64,000 nt of DNA from contig MKUP01000033.1 in NCBI GenBank assembly GCA_001898625.1, positions 335,764-399,763 of the forward strand, written 5' to 3'. The notes under the pieces were generated by a model. That model ran no database searches and was not told where the DNA came from. It worked only from the letters and a program-made list of their open reading frames with translations. Each line of letters starts with the position of its first letter. Positions within the stretch are counted from its first letter, which is position 1. A program made the position numbers and the translations under genes. Below are positions 4,681 to 32,230 of this stretch, in pieces. This DNA is from Burkholderiales bacterium 67-32 (lineage in GTDB: Bacteria; Pseudomonadota; Gammaproteobacteria; Burkholderiales; Burkholderiaceae_B).

Positions 4681-7023
4681 ATGTCCGCATCCCCGCCCCG
4701 GGCCGGAGGCTGCCCGATCCACCACGACGCCGCGCCCGCCGGCGTCGGGCCCACCGGCTGCCCCGTCAGCACGGGCGCCGCCGGCTTCGATCCGTTCGAA
4801 GACGGCTACCAGCAGGATCCGCCGGAATACGTGCGCTGGGCGCGCGAGCAGGAACCCATTTTCTACAGCCCCCGGCTGGGCTACTGGGTGGTCACGCGCT
4901 ACGAGGCCATCAAAGCCATCTTCCGCGACAACCTGACCTTCAGTCCTTCGATCGCGCTGGAGAAGATCACGCCCACGGGGCCCGAGGCCAACGCCGTGCT
5001 CGAGCAGTACGGCTACGCGATGAACCGCACCCTGGTCAACGAGGACGAGCCGGCGCACATGCCGCGCCGACGTGTCCTGATGGAGCCCTTCACGCCCGAA
5101 CACCTGAAGCATCACGAGCCCATGGTGCGGCGGCTGGCGCGCGAATACGTGGACCGCTTCGTCGACGACGGCCGCGCCGACCTGGTCGACCAGATGCTGT
5201 GGGAAGTGCCGCTGACCGTGGCGCTGCATTTCCTGGGCGTGCCCGAGGAAGACATGGACACGCTGCGGCGATATTCCATCGCCCACACCGTCAACACCTG
5301 GGGGCGCCCCAAGCCCGAGGAACAGGTGGCGGTGGCCCATGCCGTCGGCAACTTCTGGCAATACGCCGGCAAGGTGCTGGAAAAGATGCGCCAGGCCCCG
5401 GACCAGCCCGGCTGGATGCGCTACGGCATCCGCAAGCAGCAGGAGCACCCGGAGGTCGTGACCGACTCCTACCTGCACTCGATGATGATGGCCGGCATCG
5501 TCGCCGCCCACGAAACCACCGCCAACGCCACGGCCAATGCGATCAAGCTGCTGTTGCAGCATCCCGACGCCTGGCGCGAGATCTGCGAGGACCCGGGCCT
5601 GATCCCCAGCGCGGTCGAGGAATGCCTGCGCCACAACGGCTCGGTGGCGGCCTGGCGCCGCCTGGTCACCCGCGATACGCGGATCGAGGGCGTGGACATC
5701 CCCGCCGGATCGAAGCTGCTGATCGTGACCTCGTCGGCCAACCACGACGACCGCCACTTCGCCGACGCCGACTTCTTCGACATCCGCCGCGAGAACGCCA
5801 GCGACCACCTGACCTTCGGCTATGGCTCGCACCAGTGCATGGGCAAGAACCTGGCCCGCATGGAAATGCAGATCTTCCTGCAGGAACTGACGCGCCGCCT
5901 GCCCCACATGCGCCTGGCCGACCAGCGCTTCTCCTATGTGCCCAATACCTCGTTCCGCGGGCCGGAGCACCTGTGGGTGGAATGGGACCCGGCACGGAAC
6001 CCCGAGCGCCAGGATGCCGCGCTGCTGCAAGTCCAGCCGCCGGTGCGCATAGGCGAACCCTCGCGCCACGCCATCGCGCGCGGCGTGGTGGTGGAAAGCG
6101 CCACGCCGGTGGCCGACGGCATCGTCAAGCTGCGCCTGGTGGCGCCCGACGGCCGCGCGCTGCCGCGCTGGGCCCCCGGCTCGCACATCGACGTCGAGTG
6201 CGGCGAACCCGAACGCTCGCGCCAATACTCGCTGTGCGGAGACCCCGCCGACGCGGGCGCGCTGGAGATCGCCGTCCTGCATGAACCGGAGGGACGTGGC
6301 GGATCATCGTGGATACACGGCAACGTGCGCGTGGGCGACAAGCTGCGCATACGCGGCCCGCGCAACCACTTCCGCCTGGACGAGACGGCGGAGAAACTGA
6401 TCCTGGTCGCCGGCGGCATCGGCATCACGCCCATCGCCGCCATGGCCCGCCGCGCCCGCGAACTGGGCATGGACTACGAGCTGCACTACAGCGGCCGCCG
6501 CCGCGCCACCATGGCCTTCCTGGACGAACTGGCCGCCCTGCACGGCAGTCGGCTGCACGTGTACGTCTCGGAAGAAGGCCGGCGCAACGACCTGGCCGCG
6601 CTGCTGGGCCAGCCGCGGACAGGCTGGAAGATCTGCGCCTGTGGTCCCAAGCGCATGCTCGAGGCCCTGGAAGCGCACTGCGCGGCCTGGCCGGACGACG
6701 CGCTGCGCATCGAGCACTTCGAGTCCAATCTTGCCCAGCTCGACCCGGCCAGGGAACACGCCTTCGAAGTGGAACTGAAGGATTCCGGCATCACCGTGAC
6801 GGTCCCGGCGGATCGTACCGTGCTGGCCTCGCTGCGCGCCGCCAACATCGACGTGCCCAGCGACTGCGAGGAAGGCCTGTGCGGCTCGTGCGAGGTGCGC
6901 GTGCTGGCCGGTCAGGTCGACCATCGCGACATGGTGCTGACCAAGGCCGAGCGCGATGCGAACGACCGGATGATGACCTGCTGTTCGCGGGCGTGCGCCG
7001 GGAAGCTGGTGCTGGAGCTGTAG
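4681..7023 (+). CDS. Self-sufficient cytochrome P450 (CYP116B-type P450-reductase-ferredoxin fusion)
   Basis: One 780-residue chain carries the whole electron path. Residues about 1-440 are the P450: I-helix AGIVAAHETTAN (271-282), K-helix ECLR, and heme-binding FGYGSHQCMG with axial C386. Residues about 455-680 are a phthalate-dioxygenase-reductase module with the FMN motif RQYS (514-517), the NADH motif GGIGITP (578-584) and CACGP (652-656). The C-terminus is a plant-type [2Fe-2S] ferredoxin with C729, C734, C737 and C767. The order and length match P450RhF/CYP116B enzymes, which take electrons from NAD(P)H and hydroxylate or dealkylate substrates without partner proteins. The ATG at 4681 follows AGGAGACACGCC. 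The promoter carries a repeated TTACGCA operator. Natural substrate unknown. Confidence 0.95.
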   Translation: MSASPPRAGGCPIHHDAAPAGVGPTGCPVSTGAAGFDPFEDGYQQDPPEYVRWAREQEPIFYSPRLGYWVVTRYEAIKAIFRDNLTFSPSIALEKITPTGPEANAVLEQYGYAMNRTLVNEDEPAHMPRRRVLMEPFTPEHLKHHEPMVRRLAREYVDRFVDDGRADLVDQMLWEVPLTVALHFLGVPEEDMDTLRRYSIAHTVNTWGRPKPEEQVAVAHAVGNFWQYAGKVLEKMRQAPDQPGWMRYGIRKQQEHPEVVTDSYLHSMMMAGIVAAHETTANATANAIKLLLQHPDAWREICEDPGLIPSAVEECLRHNGSVAAWRRLVTRDTRIEGVDIPAGSKLLIVTSSANHDDRHFADADFFDIRRENASDHLTFGYGSHQCMGKNLARMEMQIFLQELTRRLPHMRLADQRFSYVPNTSFRGPEHLWVEWDPARNPERQDAALLQVQPPVRIGEPSRHAIARGVVVESATPVADGIVKLRLVAPDGRALPRWAPGSHIDVECGEPERSRQYSLCGDPADAGALEIAVLHEPEGRGGSSWIHGNVRVGDKLRIRGPRNHFRLDETAEKLILVAGGIGITPIAAMARRARELGMDYELHYSGRRRATMAFLDELAALHGSRLHVYVSEEGRRNDLAALLGQPRTGWKICACGPKRMLEALEAHCAAWPDDALRIEHFESNLAQLDPAREHAFEVELKDSGITVTVPADRTVLASLRAANIDVPSDCEEGLCGSCEVRVLAGQVDHRDMVLTKAERDANDRMMTCCSRACAGKLVLEL

Positions 7024-27326: not shown

Positions 27327-28034
27327 CTAACTACGGCGCAGGGCGCGACGCTGTAACAACAAGTGACTAACGGAGTTTACTTGAAGGTCGATGAAAAGCG
27401 GACGTCCGCGATGCGTCTTGGCGAACGGCGTGCCCGGGTGCCGGACGTAGACCGTGCGCATGCCGGCCTTGCGGGCGCCGCGCAGGTTGGCGGACGTGTC
27501 TTCGACCAGCACCGAGTTGTTAGCGCTTACTCCCTCCATCGCCATGACGTGGCGCATCAGGGCCGGTGAAGGCTTGACCCGGAATTCGCCATGGAAGCGC
27601 ATGTCCTCGACCGCCCAGAGGCTGTCGAAACAGTGCAGGATGCCCAGGTGCCGAAGGATGGTGCGGGCGTAATTGTGTGGTGCGTTCGTCAACAGGATCT
27701 TGCGCCCGGGCAGCCGTGACAACCGGTTACGCAAATCCTTGTCGGCGCGCACCAGCGGACGGATGTCGAAGCTGTGGCTGCGGTGCAGGAACTCGGCCGG
27801 CGACACGCCATGGTGCCGGACCATGCCGATCAGCGTCGCGCCGTAACGCTGCCAATACCGCTTGCGCAGCACATGGGCCTCTTCCTCGGACACGTTCAGC
27901 GTCTCCATGACCGCCTGGGTCATGGACAGATCGATGTGCGAGAAGATGGCGTGCGAGGCATCGTGCAGCGTGTTGTCCAGGTCGAAGAACCAGACCGGCT
28001 CCCCCTTCCCCGCTCCCACCGGCCGCCGCGTCAC
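27327..28034 (-). CDS. HAD-family pyrimidine 5'-nucleotidase
   Basis: The product is a HAD hydrolase with motif I FFDLDNTLHDASHAIF (nucleophile and acid/base aspartates), motif II LLTNAP, and motif III/IV VEDTSANLRGARKAG. The helical cap fits SDT1/YjjG-type enzymes that dephosphorylate UMP/CMP-like nucleotides. The frame is open upstream through argB. ATGs at 28199 (overlapping the argB stop as TGATG) and 28190 exist, but they would translate a GC-rich palindromic repeat at 28135-28157. I chose the GTG at 28034, close to the first conserved residues; the start is uncertain. It lies between argB and slmA. Confidence 0.85.
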   Translation of the reverse strand: MTRRPVGAGKGEPVWFFDLDNTLHDASHAIFSHIDLSMTQAVMETLNVSEEEAHVLRKRYWQRYGATLIGMVRHHGVSPAEFLHRSHSFDIRPLVRADKDLRNRLSRLPGRKILLTNAPHNYARTILRHLGILHCFDSLWAVEDMRFHGEFRVKPSPALMRHVMAMEGVSANNSVLVEDTSANLRGARKAGMRTVYVRHPGTPFAKTHRGRPLFIDLQVNSVSHLLLQRRALRRS

Positions 28035-28134
28035 ACGAACCCGGCTCAACGGCCGCCGCACCTGCCGCCGCGGCGCCGACGCCACCGAAGGCACGCCGGT
28101 CACCGCCGCCGCAACTTCACTTACGTAGAGGTCC

Positions 28135-28157
28135 CCCCCTACGCGCTGCGCGCGCCC
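28135..28157 (+). repeat. GC-palindromic intergenic repeat, copy 1
   Basis: This 23-mer, with core TACGCGCTGCGCGCGCCC, matches the complement of 41499-41521 with one mismatch. A CCCCCC/GGGGG hairpin (about 28156-28167) follows it. It looks like a short dispersed REP-like unit. Confidence 0.6.
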
Positions 28158-28198
28158 CCCAGGGGGCGATGCGGGCGGACCGGCGAACATGGCCCCCA

Positions 28199-29164
<966 letters not shown>

Positions 29165-29193
29165 TCAATTGTAGCCACTGCGCCAGCCGGATT

Positions 29194-29440
29194 CCGTCCA
29201 CAGGATATCCCGCCGTTATACCGGGCTTATCCCGGCCTTTTCCCCAGGCTTGTCCGCAGGGCTGTCCACGGCTTCCCCACAGGGTTCCACACAGCTTGTC
29301 CACATGGCTGCCCCCGGTTTTCCACCTGATTTCCCCAGGAAATCCACAGCTTGCCCACAGCCTTTCCACACCGTTTTCCACAAATTGCCCACAGGTGTTT
29401 CCAACGGCTTTCCACAGCCTTGTCCCCAGGGTTTTCCACC
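29194..29440 (+). repeat. Array of about 20 DnaA-box-like units with 11-12 bp period
   Basis: This gene-free stretch repeats a degenerate TTNTCCACAGG unit, always in the same orientation. Units begin near 29194, 29227, 29238, 29250, 29262, 29273, 29283, 29296, 29307, 29318, 29329, 29340, 29351, 29362, 29374, 29385, 29397, 29408, 29420 and 29432, so the step is mostly 11 or 12 bp. The best matches to the DnaA box TTATCCACA are TTGTCCACA (29296-29304) and TTTTCCACA (29374-29382), each one mismatch off. The rest carry two or three mismatches. No AT-rich unwinding region is adjacent. Together with the CueR promoter it accounts for the 29129-29536 gap between argB and cueR. Confidence 0.75.
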
Positions 29441-29478
29441 GCCGCCAGCCAGCCTTGAAATACCGGGGAACGGCCGCA

Positions 29479-29509
29479 TTTACCTTGACATGATGGCAAG
29501 GTCTAGAAT
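29479..29509 (+). promoter_or_regulatory. CueR-type promoter/operator
   Basis: The 21-bp dyad ACCTTG-N9-CAAGGT (29482-29502) lies between a -35 TTTACC (29479-29484) and a -10 TAGAAT (29504-29509) that are 19 bases apart. A long spacer with a central dyad is the hallmark of MerR-family activated promoters. It drives cueR itself and probably the CusF-like gene downstream. Confidence 0.75.
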
Positions 29510-29536
29510 CCCCTTCACCCTGGTAAGGAGATCGCC

Positions 29537-29977
29537 ATGCAGGCGCTGAACATAGGACAGGCTTCCGACGCCTCGGGCGTTTCGGCCAAGATGATCCGGC
29601 ACTACGAATCCATAGGACTGATACCGCCCGCCCACCGCACCGATTCCGGCTACCGGCTCTATGGCGAAAGCGATGTCCATATGCTGCAGTTCATCCGCAA
29701 CGCGCGCGACCTGGGTTTTTCGATCCCCCAGATCGGGACGCTGCTGGAACTGTGGAACGACCGTGGCCGGCCCAGTGCCGAGGTCAAGCGGCTAGCCTGC
29801 GCGCACATCGATGAACTGGACGAGAAGATCCGCGGTCTACAGGCCATGAAGGCCACGTTGGAGCAGCTCGCCTCCCATTGCCACGGCGACCACCGCCCGG
29901 ACTGCCCCATCCTGAGCGGCCTGGCGACCCCCGGCATGGGCACGCGCGGCCTGGCCGAGCACACCTGCAACGGATGA
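29537..29977 (+). CDS. cueR: Cu(I)-responsive MerR-family regulator CueR
   Basis: The 146-residue protein has the MerR winged helix (NIGQASDASGVSAKMIRHYE, then RTDSGYRLYGESDV), a dimerisation helix, and the C-terminal metal loop CHGDHRPDC. The loop holds C115 and C123 seven residues apart, the spacing that selects monovalent Cu, Ag or Au in CueR. CueR untwists long-spacer promoters to activate copper export and chaperone genes. Such a promoter lies directly upstream (29479-29509). The CusF-like gene follows 97 bases downstream. No copA ATPase or multicopper oxidase lies within the window. The ATG has AAGGAG upstream. Confidence 0.92.
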   Translation: MQALNIGQASDASGVSAKMIRHYESIGLIPPAHRTDSGYRLYGESDVHMLQFIRNARDLGFSIPQIGTLLELWNDRGRPSAEVKRLACAHIDELDEKIRGLQAMKATLEQLASHCHGDHRPDCPILSGLATPGMGTRGLAEHTCNG

Positions 29978-30074
29978 AACCAATCCCCATGCCCGGGCGG
30001 CCTGCGGGTGGACCCTGTTAGCATTTCGGGTATCGGCGGCCTGCCCGCCGCCCTATCGCCAGAAGGAGAACGCA

Positions 30075-30368
30075 GTGAAACGTCTACTCGCCCTGATCGC
30101 CACGGTTGCCGCCCTCGCGCTGACCGCGGGCGCCGCGCTTGCGCAGGCGCTCAATGCCGAAGGCGAGGTGCGCCGCATCGACGCGGCGAACGGCAAGGTC
30201 ACCCTCAAGCACGGCCCCATCGCCAACCTTCAACTACCGGCCATGACGCTGGTCTTCAAGGTAACGGACCCCTCGATGCTGAACCAGATCAAGGCCGGCG
30301 ACAACGTTCGCTTCGCCGCCGACAAGATCAACGGCCAATACACGATCACGGCCATCCAGCCGAAATAA
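30075..30368 (+). CDS. CusF-like periplasmic copper-binding protein
   Basis: The 97-residue protein has a signal peptide (KRLLALIATVAALALTAGAA, cleaved near ALAQA) and a small OB-fold CusF domain: GEVRRIDAANGKVTLKHGPI, then NLQLPAMTLVF. In E. coli CusF, Cu(I)/Ag(I) is held by His36, Met47 and Met49 and capped by Trp44. Here the His and first Met are kept, but Trp is Leu and the second Met is Leu, so binding would be weaker or different. It lies behind cueR and is probably copper-induced. It converges on hslU only three bases away, with no room for a separate terminator. Confidence 0.87.
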   Translation: MKRLLALIATVAALALTAGAALAQALNAEGEVRRIDAANGKVTLKHGPIANLQLPAMTLVFKVTDPSMLNQIKAGDNVRFAADKINGQYTITAIQPK

Positions 30369-30371
30369 GGC

Positions 30372-31697
30372 CTACAGCACGTAGCGCGCCAGGTCCTGGT
30401 GCGCCGCGGCCTCTTCCAGCTGCCGGTTGACGTACTCGGTGTCGATGCGCACCACCTCCCCGCTCTTGCGGGTCGCATCGAACGACAGCTCTTCCAGCAG
30501 CTTTTCCATCACCGTGTACAGCCGGCGCGCACCGATGTTCTCGGTCTTCTCGTTCACCGCGAAGGCCAGCTCGGCCAGGCGCTCGATGCCCTCGTCGGTG
30601 AATTCCAGCCTGACGCCTTCGGTCTCGAGCAGCGCCGTGTATTGCTTGACCAGCGAGGCATCGGTCTCGGACAGGATGCGTACGAAATCCTTGGCCGACA
30701 GCGAATCGAGCTCGACCCGGATCGGGAAGCGCCCTTGCAGCTCGGGGATCAGGTCCGACGGCCGCGACAGGTGGAAGGCCCCCGACGCGATGAACAGGAT
30801 GTGGTCCGTGCGCACCATGCCGTACTTGGTGTTGACGGTCGTACCCTCGACCAGCGGCAGCAGGTCGCGCTGCACGCCCTGGCGCGAGACGTCCGAGCCG
30901 CTGGTTTCCTGGCGAGTGGCGATCTTGTCGACTTCGTCCAGGAACACGATGCCGTTCTGCTCGACGCTGGCCAACGCCTTGGTGCGCAGCTCTTCCTCGT
31001 TCACGCGGCGGCCGGCTTCCTCGTCCACCAGCAGCTTGAAGGCTTCCTTGATGCTCAGCTTGCGGACCTTCTTCTTGCCCTGGGCCATGCCGGCGAACAT
31101 GCCGCGGATCTGCTCGGTCATTTCCTCCATGCCCGGCGGCGACATGATCTCCATCTGCGGCACGGCCTGGGCCACTTCGATCTCGATCTCCTTGTCGTCC
31201 AGTTGCCCTTCCCGCAGGCGCTTACGGAAGGTCTGGCGCGCGGCATTGTCGTCGCGCTGCGGATTGCCCATCGCGTCGCGCGCGGGCGGGACCAGCACGT
31301 CCAGGATACGGTCCTCGGCGGCGTCCTCGGCCTGCGTGCGCACGCGGCGCATCTCGGCCTCGCGCACTTGCTTGACGGCCACCTCGGCCAGGTCGCGGAT
31401 GATGGTGTCGACGTCGCGGCCCACGTAGCCCACCTCGGTGAACTTGGTGGCTTCGACCTTCACGAAGGGCGCATCGGCCAGCTTGGCCAGGCGGCGCGCG
31501 ATCTCGGTCTTGCCCACGCCCGTCGGGCCTATCATCAGGATGTTCTTGGGGTGGATCTCGTGGCGCAGCGGCTCGGCCACCTGCTGGCGGCGCCAGCGGT
31601 TGCGCAGCGCAATGGCCACGGAACGCTTGGCGCGGTCCTGGCCGACGATGTACTTGTCCAGCTCGGAGACGATCTCACCGGGGGTCATCATGTTCAT
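30372..31697 (-). CDS. hslU: ATP-dependent protease ATPase subunit HslU
   Basis: The 441-residue AAA+ protein has Walker [18 protein letters not shown], Walker [13 protein letters not shown], the sensor region [10 protein letters not shown], the I-domain insertion (about residues 100-240) and the HslV-docking C-terminus ending in QDLARYVL. HslU unfolds substrates and feeds them to HslV. The ATG at 31697 overlaps the hslV stop (ATGA), so the two are translationally coupled, as in most bacteria. An alternative ATG is two codons in. Confidence 0.97.
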
Positions 31698-32230
31698 TCC
31701 AGTACCTCGACGGTGTGATGCTGGTTGGTGTAAATGCAAAGATCGCCCGCGATCGACAGCGACTTCTTGACGATGTCCTCGGGCGCCATGTCAGTGTTCT
31801 GCAGCAGCGCCAGGCCGGCCGACTGCGCATAGGCGCCGCCCGAACCGATGGCCGCCAGGCCGTGCTCGGGTTCCAGCACGTCGCCGTTGCCGGTCAGCAC
31901 CAGCGTCGATTCCCGGTCGGCCACGATCAGCATGGCTTCCAGCCGGCGCAGCACGCGGTCGGTGCGCCAGTCACGCGTCAGGTCTACCGCCGCGCGCAGC
32001 AGGTGGCCCTGGTGTTTTTCCAGCTTGCCCTCGAAACGCTCGATCAGCGTGAAGGCATCGGCCGTGGCGCCGGCGAAACCCGCCAGCACCGAATCCTTGT
32101 ACAGGCGGCGCACCTTGCGGGCGCTGCCCTTCATGACGATGTTTCCCAGGGTGACCTGCCCGTCGCCGCCCAGGGCAACGCGGTTGCCGCGGCGCACGCT
32201 GATGATGGTCGTGCCGTGGAATTGTTCCAT
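31694..32230 (-). CDS. hslV: ATP-dependent protease proteolytic subunit HslV
   Basis: The 178-residue proteasome-like subunit becomes active by removal of the first residues, exposing the catalytic threonine in [20 protein letters not shown]. It retains the [16 protein letters not shown] segment. HslV forms a two-ring dodecamer with HslU caps and degrades heat-shock and regulatory proteins. The ATG at 32230 follows AGGAAGAG. It is the first gene of hslVU; dksA lies 162 bases upstream, separated by a canonical terminator. Confidence 0.97.

Follow-up and report, generated by a model that had tools for sequence, protein, structure and literature searches.

An array of DnaA-box-like units between argB and cueR

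The window analysed here, a stretch of 64,000 nucleotides, derives from a member of the genus Pigmentiphaga. It carries argB (positions 28199-29128, minus strand), a gene of the amino acid kinase family (PF00696), with a putative argB −10 element, TACAAT, which we read by eye at 29168-29173 on the same strand. The sequence ATTGTAGC is also found upstream of argB in Pigmentiphaga genome G010, where the array described below is not adjacent to argB. On the other side of the intergenic region is a gene for a cueR-like MerR-family regulator (29537-29977, plus strand; PF00376 and PF09278), followed by genes for a cusF-like periplasmic copper protein (30075-30368, plus strand; PF11604) and for hslU (30372-31739, minus strand), the latter named by eye from its translation. 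The sequence ACCTTGACATGATGGCAAGGT at 29482-29502 (plus strand), between the array and cueR, may be a CueR/MerR-type operator, to judge from its motif. An Rfam scan of positions 28000-31000 returned nothing at the gathering score. A match to a mammalian RNA family in a permissive Rfam scan reached 24.8 bits relative to a threshold of 46, and was taken as chance.

The region between argB and cueR contains 22 DnaA-box-like units at 29194-29442 on the plus strand, all in one orientation and with the consensus TTNTCCACAGG. Successive units follow each other in steps of 11 bp (14 steps) or 12 bp (7 steps), with a mean of 11.33 bp, and the gaps between the 9-mers are 2 or 3 bp, head to tail, which is the layout of a head-to-tail low-affinity DnaA array. 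A preliminary description of this DNA had reported an array of about 20 units in one orientation, with 11-12 bp steps, between argB and cueR; this was correct, with coordinates accurate to within a few bases. The same description had called the array phased. The step is indeed regular, but B-DNA has a repeat of 10.5 bp and not of 11.33 bp, so that successive sites of the array rotate.

Parsing with a unit matrix that was trained on ten Pigmentiphaga arrays, the one in the window among them, gave a score of 223 on the plus strand and 4.3 on the minus strand, while the score was at most 17.5 across 200 mononucleotide shuffles. With this matrix, zero chains with a score of at least 24 were detected in 880,587 bases that had not been selected for arrays; three column-permuted matrices applied to the same bases yielded 0, 0 and 6 such chains, the best of which scored 29.8. 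Tandem Repeats Finder (TRF) reported periods of 11, 23 and 34 in the array. The GC content was 55-61% over the array and 55-65% beside it, in agreement with the earlier remark that no AT-rich unwinding element is adjacent.

Few of the units are exact boxes. Within the 64-kb window TTNTCCACA occurs exactly twice, both times inside the array on the plus strand, as TTGTCCACA at 29296-29304 and as TTTTCCACA at 29374-29382. Since two or more exact copies were also present in 9 of 100 shuffles, this count is by itself unremarkable; it is the regular run that is remarkable. When the 22 units were compared with TTNTCCACA, 2 were exact, 10 had one mismatch, 5 had two and 5 had three or more, from which it follows that the affinity of a single site must be low. 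Position 5 of the unit is a C in 85% of cases.

Alignment of the arrays of four close species showed that 14 of 154 columns were variable at unit positions 2 and 4-9, as compared to 26 of 95 other unit columns (Fisher p 2.9e-4). This contrast was strongest at the true phase out of eleven, and positions 6 and 7 displayed zero variation. The mean pairwise divergence amounted to 0.050 in the core and 0.153 at the other unit positions, where the argB-side flank had 0.010, the cueR-side flank 0.148 and the third codon positions of argB 0.058-0.110. The core is therefore constrained relative to its own spacers, though not beyond the argB leader. In the window, adjacent units agreed at 6.76 of 11 positions and distant units at 6.22-6.44. 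A slight excess of this kind was also seen in G008, and in five arrays the similarity did not clearly fall off as units lay further apart. As adjacent units in these five arrays are at most slightly more alike, we see no sign of recent slippage.

Conservation in Pigmentiphaga and similar arrays at other loci

We compared 11 Pigmentiphaga genomes, including those of P. kullae, P. humi and P. litoralis. The top match of the window's ArgB, at 100% identity, came from a metagenome bin that carries the name Rubrivivax; this name is probably mistaken, as the isolates that rank next are Pigmentiphaga. In 10 of them the array is located directly upstream of argB and consists of 10-24 units. P. litoralis and G001 carry 10-unit arrays, which adjoin what reads as a copper ATPase gene. 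G010, the eleventh genome, has a 13-unit run upstream of cusF, 11 kb from argB and 2.6 kb from hslU, and a second run of 14 units upstream of prfC. With respect to hslU, the 13-unit run is oriented like the array of the window. The array is thus kept in all 11 genomes despite changing neighbours, and absence from close relatives, which the preliminary description had named as an outcome that would speak against it, was not observed. All 11 genomes have a copper gene directly downstream of the array and co-directed with it, which makes a local role possible. This gene is cueR in eight genomes, encodes a copper ATPase in two and is cusF in one (names by eye, except for the genes of the window and cusF of G010). 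Outside the genus, 72 of 72 argB loci (L030-L101) lacked any plus-strand chain of at least two units at 10-13 bp steps, with 502 bases upstream available for L085 and 175 for L099. The array at the argB locus is therefore genus-specific.

To search for similar arrays at other loci, we used R1, a sequence-only model for which 40 four-unit segments were taken from seven Pigmentiphaga arrays. Alignment A1 was used for this purpose; an alternative alignment, A2, was worse and was dropped. In the 64-kb window, all 8 matches of R1 at E ≤ 1 fall within the array, from which the model had partly been built. At E 1e-3, R1 matched 75 of 268 family genomes, belonging to 22 of 43 genera, whereas the reversed control R2, run identically, matched 0 of 268. 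R1 matches occurred in 64 family genomes outside the genus, and for 53 of these we fetched loci, covering part of the matches per genome. A run of at least 6 units with a score of at least 55 was present in 28 of these 53 genomes, 14 had just 4-5-unit runs at a plasmid-type initiator locus, and the runs in the remaining 11 were shorter or weaker. R1 matches that did not represent arrays included L201 with a 2-unit run, L227 inside an mnmE-like frame, and L286 with no run of score 30.

The runs of 6-15 units outside the genus occupy unrelated loci. An M20 peptidase locus with 7-11 units is common to Achromobacter and Bordetella, and the runs of G141 and G144 are located there as well, though tallied as origin-side. 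An ssb-adjacent locus in Achromobacter has 6-10 units, with paired runs about 207 bp apart in 6 of 7 genomes. Further loci are an MFS-type gene locus (5-9 units), a locus in genus g6 (11-14 units) and single cases with 15, 8, 6 and 6 units. In L171, from an Achromobacter-type genome, a 9-unit run (6692-6790) and a 7-unit run (6922-6997), about 207 bp apart, are found downstream of ssb. In each of the two, a poor unit comes after a single 10-bp step, in a duplication-like manner, and the pair is present in five more genomes. A locus from another family, L232:1494-1564, looks like recent slippage, with three identical units (TTATCCACCGGC) among its six, each of about 12 bp.

The plasmid-type initiator was assigned by tblastn with the L167 protein, and PF10134 was confirmed in L167 and L175. 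Four-unit head-to-tail runs lie at or just after the 3′ end of this gene (L167:7947-7991, L175:6280-6324, L176:6204-6248 and similar). In several of these loci parA-like genes follow downstream, an arrangement that resembles a plasmid-type origin within an integrative element. One such initiator-linked four-unit run is present in the genome from which the window derives, on contig C9.

Searches beyond the family led in part to replication origins. At E 1e-4, R1 matched 11 of 399 genomes of the order, the own genome included, and the strongest match was the dnaA-dnaN gap of G561, where exact boxes form two groups of four, with steps of 11 bp. In the class, 21 of 369 genomes were matched at E 1e-4, again with the own genome included. 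DnaA and/or DnaN was encoded at 6 of 19 fetched loci, all six with two opposed TTATCCACAGG-type runs, and the other 13 loci had neither DnaA nor DnaN within the fetched 1.6-3 kb. The R1-matched dnaA-dnaN gaps of distant relatives are built of exact TTATCCACA boxes with the same head-to-tail step. Because R1 matches dnaA-dnaN gaps that share this step, we conclude that the argB array has the same geometry as real origins. The runs in origins are short, near-perfect and opposed, whereas the argB array is long, weak and one-directional. The view that such tight tandem spacing is atypical of oriC, as expressed in the preliminary description, did not survive this comparison, nor does it agree with what is reported for Escherichia coli, where the low-affinity sites of the oriC arrays point one way and are exactly 2 bp apart, with 3 bp between R4 and C1 (PMC4451416).

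Position of the arrays relative to the origin

On contigs that carry both, the argB array is 507-666 kb away from dnaA in five Pigmentiphaga genomes and 1.78 Mb away in G005, which is an exception to origin-side placement; the two runs of G010 are at 625 and 181 kb. The corresponding distances are 6.6-12.4 kb for the M20 locus (six genomes), 129-176 kb for the ssb locus (three), 308-405 kb for the MFS locus (four), 66-71 kb for g6 (three) and 318 kb for G145. Of 25 measured arrays, 24 are thus less than 0.7 Mb from dnaA, in a set where draft genomes favour short distances. Compared with uniform placement, the distances to dnaA were smaller, with a combined p of ∼1.5e-4 for six loci, one per locus family, that were chosen post hoc from five single-contig genomes and, for M20, G101 (three contigs), G005 and G145 being excluded. 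The orientation of the arrays relative to the replication fork was not uniform between locus families.

The GC skew of G007, taken from 20 samples 300 kb apart, switches at the dnaA end and at about 2.95 Mb, with the sample at 1.0 Mb off-trend. There is no switch at 5.34 Mb, where the array is located 0.65 Mb from the dnaA end, and we therefore conclude that the array is not at the origin. It has neither the AT-rich unwinding element nor the location at a skew switch that mark an oriC, and it lies away from both origin-like regions of Pigmentiphaga, which contain TTATCCACAGG and TTGTCCACAGG. At L256:4796-4988 (5,886.3 kb in G007), and also in L261-L272, five exact copies of TTNTCCACA are clustered within about 190 bp, together with an AT-rich stretch. 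The cluster adjoins a sir2-like gene and, in G007, lies 107 kb from dnaA. DNA of this cluster was matched in 11 of 11 genus genomes, although over just 46-96 bases in G001, G006 and G010. The cluster includes the string TAGTAGTTA, which we take to be DnaA-trio-like, and it may represent a candidate oriC besides the dnaA-dnaN gap. The array and this cluster are 417-688 kb apart in five genomes, as opposed to 2.03 Mb in G005.

Exact copies of TTNTCCACAGG are not over-represented in G007, where we counted 5 as compared to 8 for the reversed pattern; 4 of the 5 are within 195 kb of dnaA and none is in the argB array. A three-unit run at L257:3299-3332, about 195 kb from dnaA in G007, ends in an exact TTATCCACAGG and is flanked by priA-like and hemE-like genes, as named by eye.

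Probable DnaA titration and alternative roles of the array

The unit of the array corresponds to the DnaA box, and its gaps of 2-3 bp are those of the E. coli oriC arrays. Moreover, R1 matched dnaA-dnaN gaps although it was made from arrays alone, and its reversed control matched none of the 268 family genomes. These findings support DnaA as the protein that reads the array and, from unit sequence, spacing and the geometry of the dnaA-dnaN gaps, we infer that DnaA binds to it. On sequence grounds it seems reasonably probable that the array is an extra-oriC DnaA-binding element, cooperative and of low affinity, which titrates DnaA, probably in its ATP form. The preference for ATP-DnaA is suggested by analogy with the low-affinity sites of E. 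coli as described in PMC4285127.

In such a mechanism, DnaA would first occupy the few near-consensus units and then, via head-to-tail contacts, the neighbouring weak ones, so that a long one-directional DnaA filament would form on duplex DNA. With weak units that depend on their neighbours, filling would require ATP-DnaA and would be steep with concentration, and each copy of the array could hold up to ∼20 DnaA molecules. At a distance of ∼0.4-0.7 Mb from the origin in most measured genomes, the array would be copied fairly soon after initiation, and the doubled sink would lower free DnaA and restrain re-initiation. Titration as the best explanation is supported by the constrained core, the retention in 11 of 11 genus genomes and the origin-side distances, as well as by the 14 non-genus genomes with 4-5-unit runs at a plasmid-type initiator locus. 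It is weakened by the small number of exact units, the lack of over-representation of TTNTCCACAGG in G007, the distance in G005 and the mixed orientation relative to the fork.

Several known systems resemble the array in part. The low-affinity arrays in E. coli oriC are likewise degenerate and one-directional with 2-bp gaps, and are described as cooperative and ATP-DnaA-preferring (PMC4451416, PMC4285127, PMC10316083). However, they are a pair of opposed arrays inside the origin, each with four low-affinity sites, whereas arrays of the Pigmentiphaga type have up to 24 units in one direction, without an unwinding element and hundreds of kb from the origin. The oriC-proximal DnaA-box clusters of Bacillus subtilis also lie outside oriC. 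Deletion of six of them is reported to result in early initiation, with partial relief when one was re-added at various places (PMC5295017), but this precedent is disputed, and the present array differs in being an uninterrupted weak one-way run with 11-12 bp steps, in another phylum and at other loci. Lastly, an enrichment of DnaA boxes on the origin side in E. coli has been proposed to favour titration (Olivi et al. 2025, PMC12371093). As described there, it is a density peak over tens of centisomes, as opposed to the one dense array of Pigmentiphaga.

The array could also act by converting the nucleotide form of DnaA rather than by simple binding, as datA does through ATP hydrolysis and DARS through ADP release. 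Indeed, datA, DARS1 and DARS2 of E. coli, which act on DnaA, are likewise chromosomal clusters of DnaA boxes outside oriC (PMC4585315), and a long head-to-tail run could conceivably bring DnaA domains into contact. Nonetheless, datA is described as having an IHF site and five boxes, and the three-box core of DARS as accompanied by IHF/Fis sites or by a specific flank (PMC4585315), whereas the array has 22 units of uniform direction, and the exact IHF consensus WATCAANNNNTTR is absent from positions 28901-29800. Judged on boxes and IHF, the array is neither a datA nor a DARS, and conversion appears unlikely, even if it is inseparable from titration by sequence alone. With several boxes clustered outside the origin, the array belongs with the extra-oriC DnaA-box clusters, with DnaA binding as a prediction, and not with datA and DARS as defined in E. 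coli. The datA/DARS-like titrating locus of the preliminary description is thus best supported in its extra-oriC titration, while the strict datA/DARS identity was lost on the missing exact IHF site and the different box layout. Quite unlikely, in our opinion, is regulation of argB or copper gene transcription by array-bound DnaA. The array is situated between argB and the copper genes, upstream of and co-directed with the copper gene in all 11 genomes, and DnaA is known as a transcription factor elsewhere (PMC4447404). Yet, in G010, argB is 11 kb away and no CueR-type palindrome was detectable by eye between the array and cusF; arrays in other genera are found beside an M20 peptidase gene, ssb, prfC and other loci, and 22 sites are more than repression should need. 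For the DnaA-controlled argB promoter proposed earlier, the distance in G010 and the unrelated genes in other genera make it an improbable main purpose of the array.

The degenerate units and their preference for C at position 5 would also fit a different protein that reads the same repeat type. We consider this very improbable, as in distant genera R1 picks up dnaA-dnaN gaps whose exact boxes follow one another with the same step, and the reversed model matches nothing in the family. It is scarcely credible that the array is a neutral minisatellite, decaying after replication slippage. The period of 11-12, the degenerate copies and the TRF periods are what such a repeat would display, and the slight excess for adjacent units in the window and in G008 means that an old slippage origin is possible. 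Against neutrality, neighbouring units were not clearly more alike in the five arrays, and retention is complete in the genus; the core is constrained, while the other unit positions diverge about as much as the cueR flank and more than the third positions of argB. Just as implausible is a main or second replication origin at this site, even though the array outnumbers the dnaA-dnaN gap of the genus in DnaA-box-like units, because the skew of G007 switches elsewhere, the array has no AT-rich element at its GC content of 55-61%, and an AT-rich DnaA-box cluster is present elsewhere in the genus.

Returning to titration, we tentatively suggest, as an idea that may well prove too broad, that these arrays form a distinct class of element: long one-directional arrays of weak boxes on which ATP-DnaA would assemble as a filament on duplex DNA, which would serve as a steep, copy-number-counting sink and would have arisen repeatedly, at mostly origin-side loci, in Achromobacter, Bordetella, Pigmentiphaga and related genera. 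Our searches of the open-access literature returned no description of long one-directional arrays of this kind, in the family or otherwise. Titration of DnaA on the chromosome as a timer of replication has been debated for long, and according to Olivi et al. (2025, PMC12371093) experimental evidence for it was lacking before their own work in E. coli. A single, deletable array of ∼20 sites that is located among ordinary genes, apart from oriC, would offer a clean test of titration. In addition, the array could reveal whether long DnaA filaments assemble on duplex DNA in vivo.
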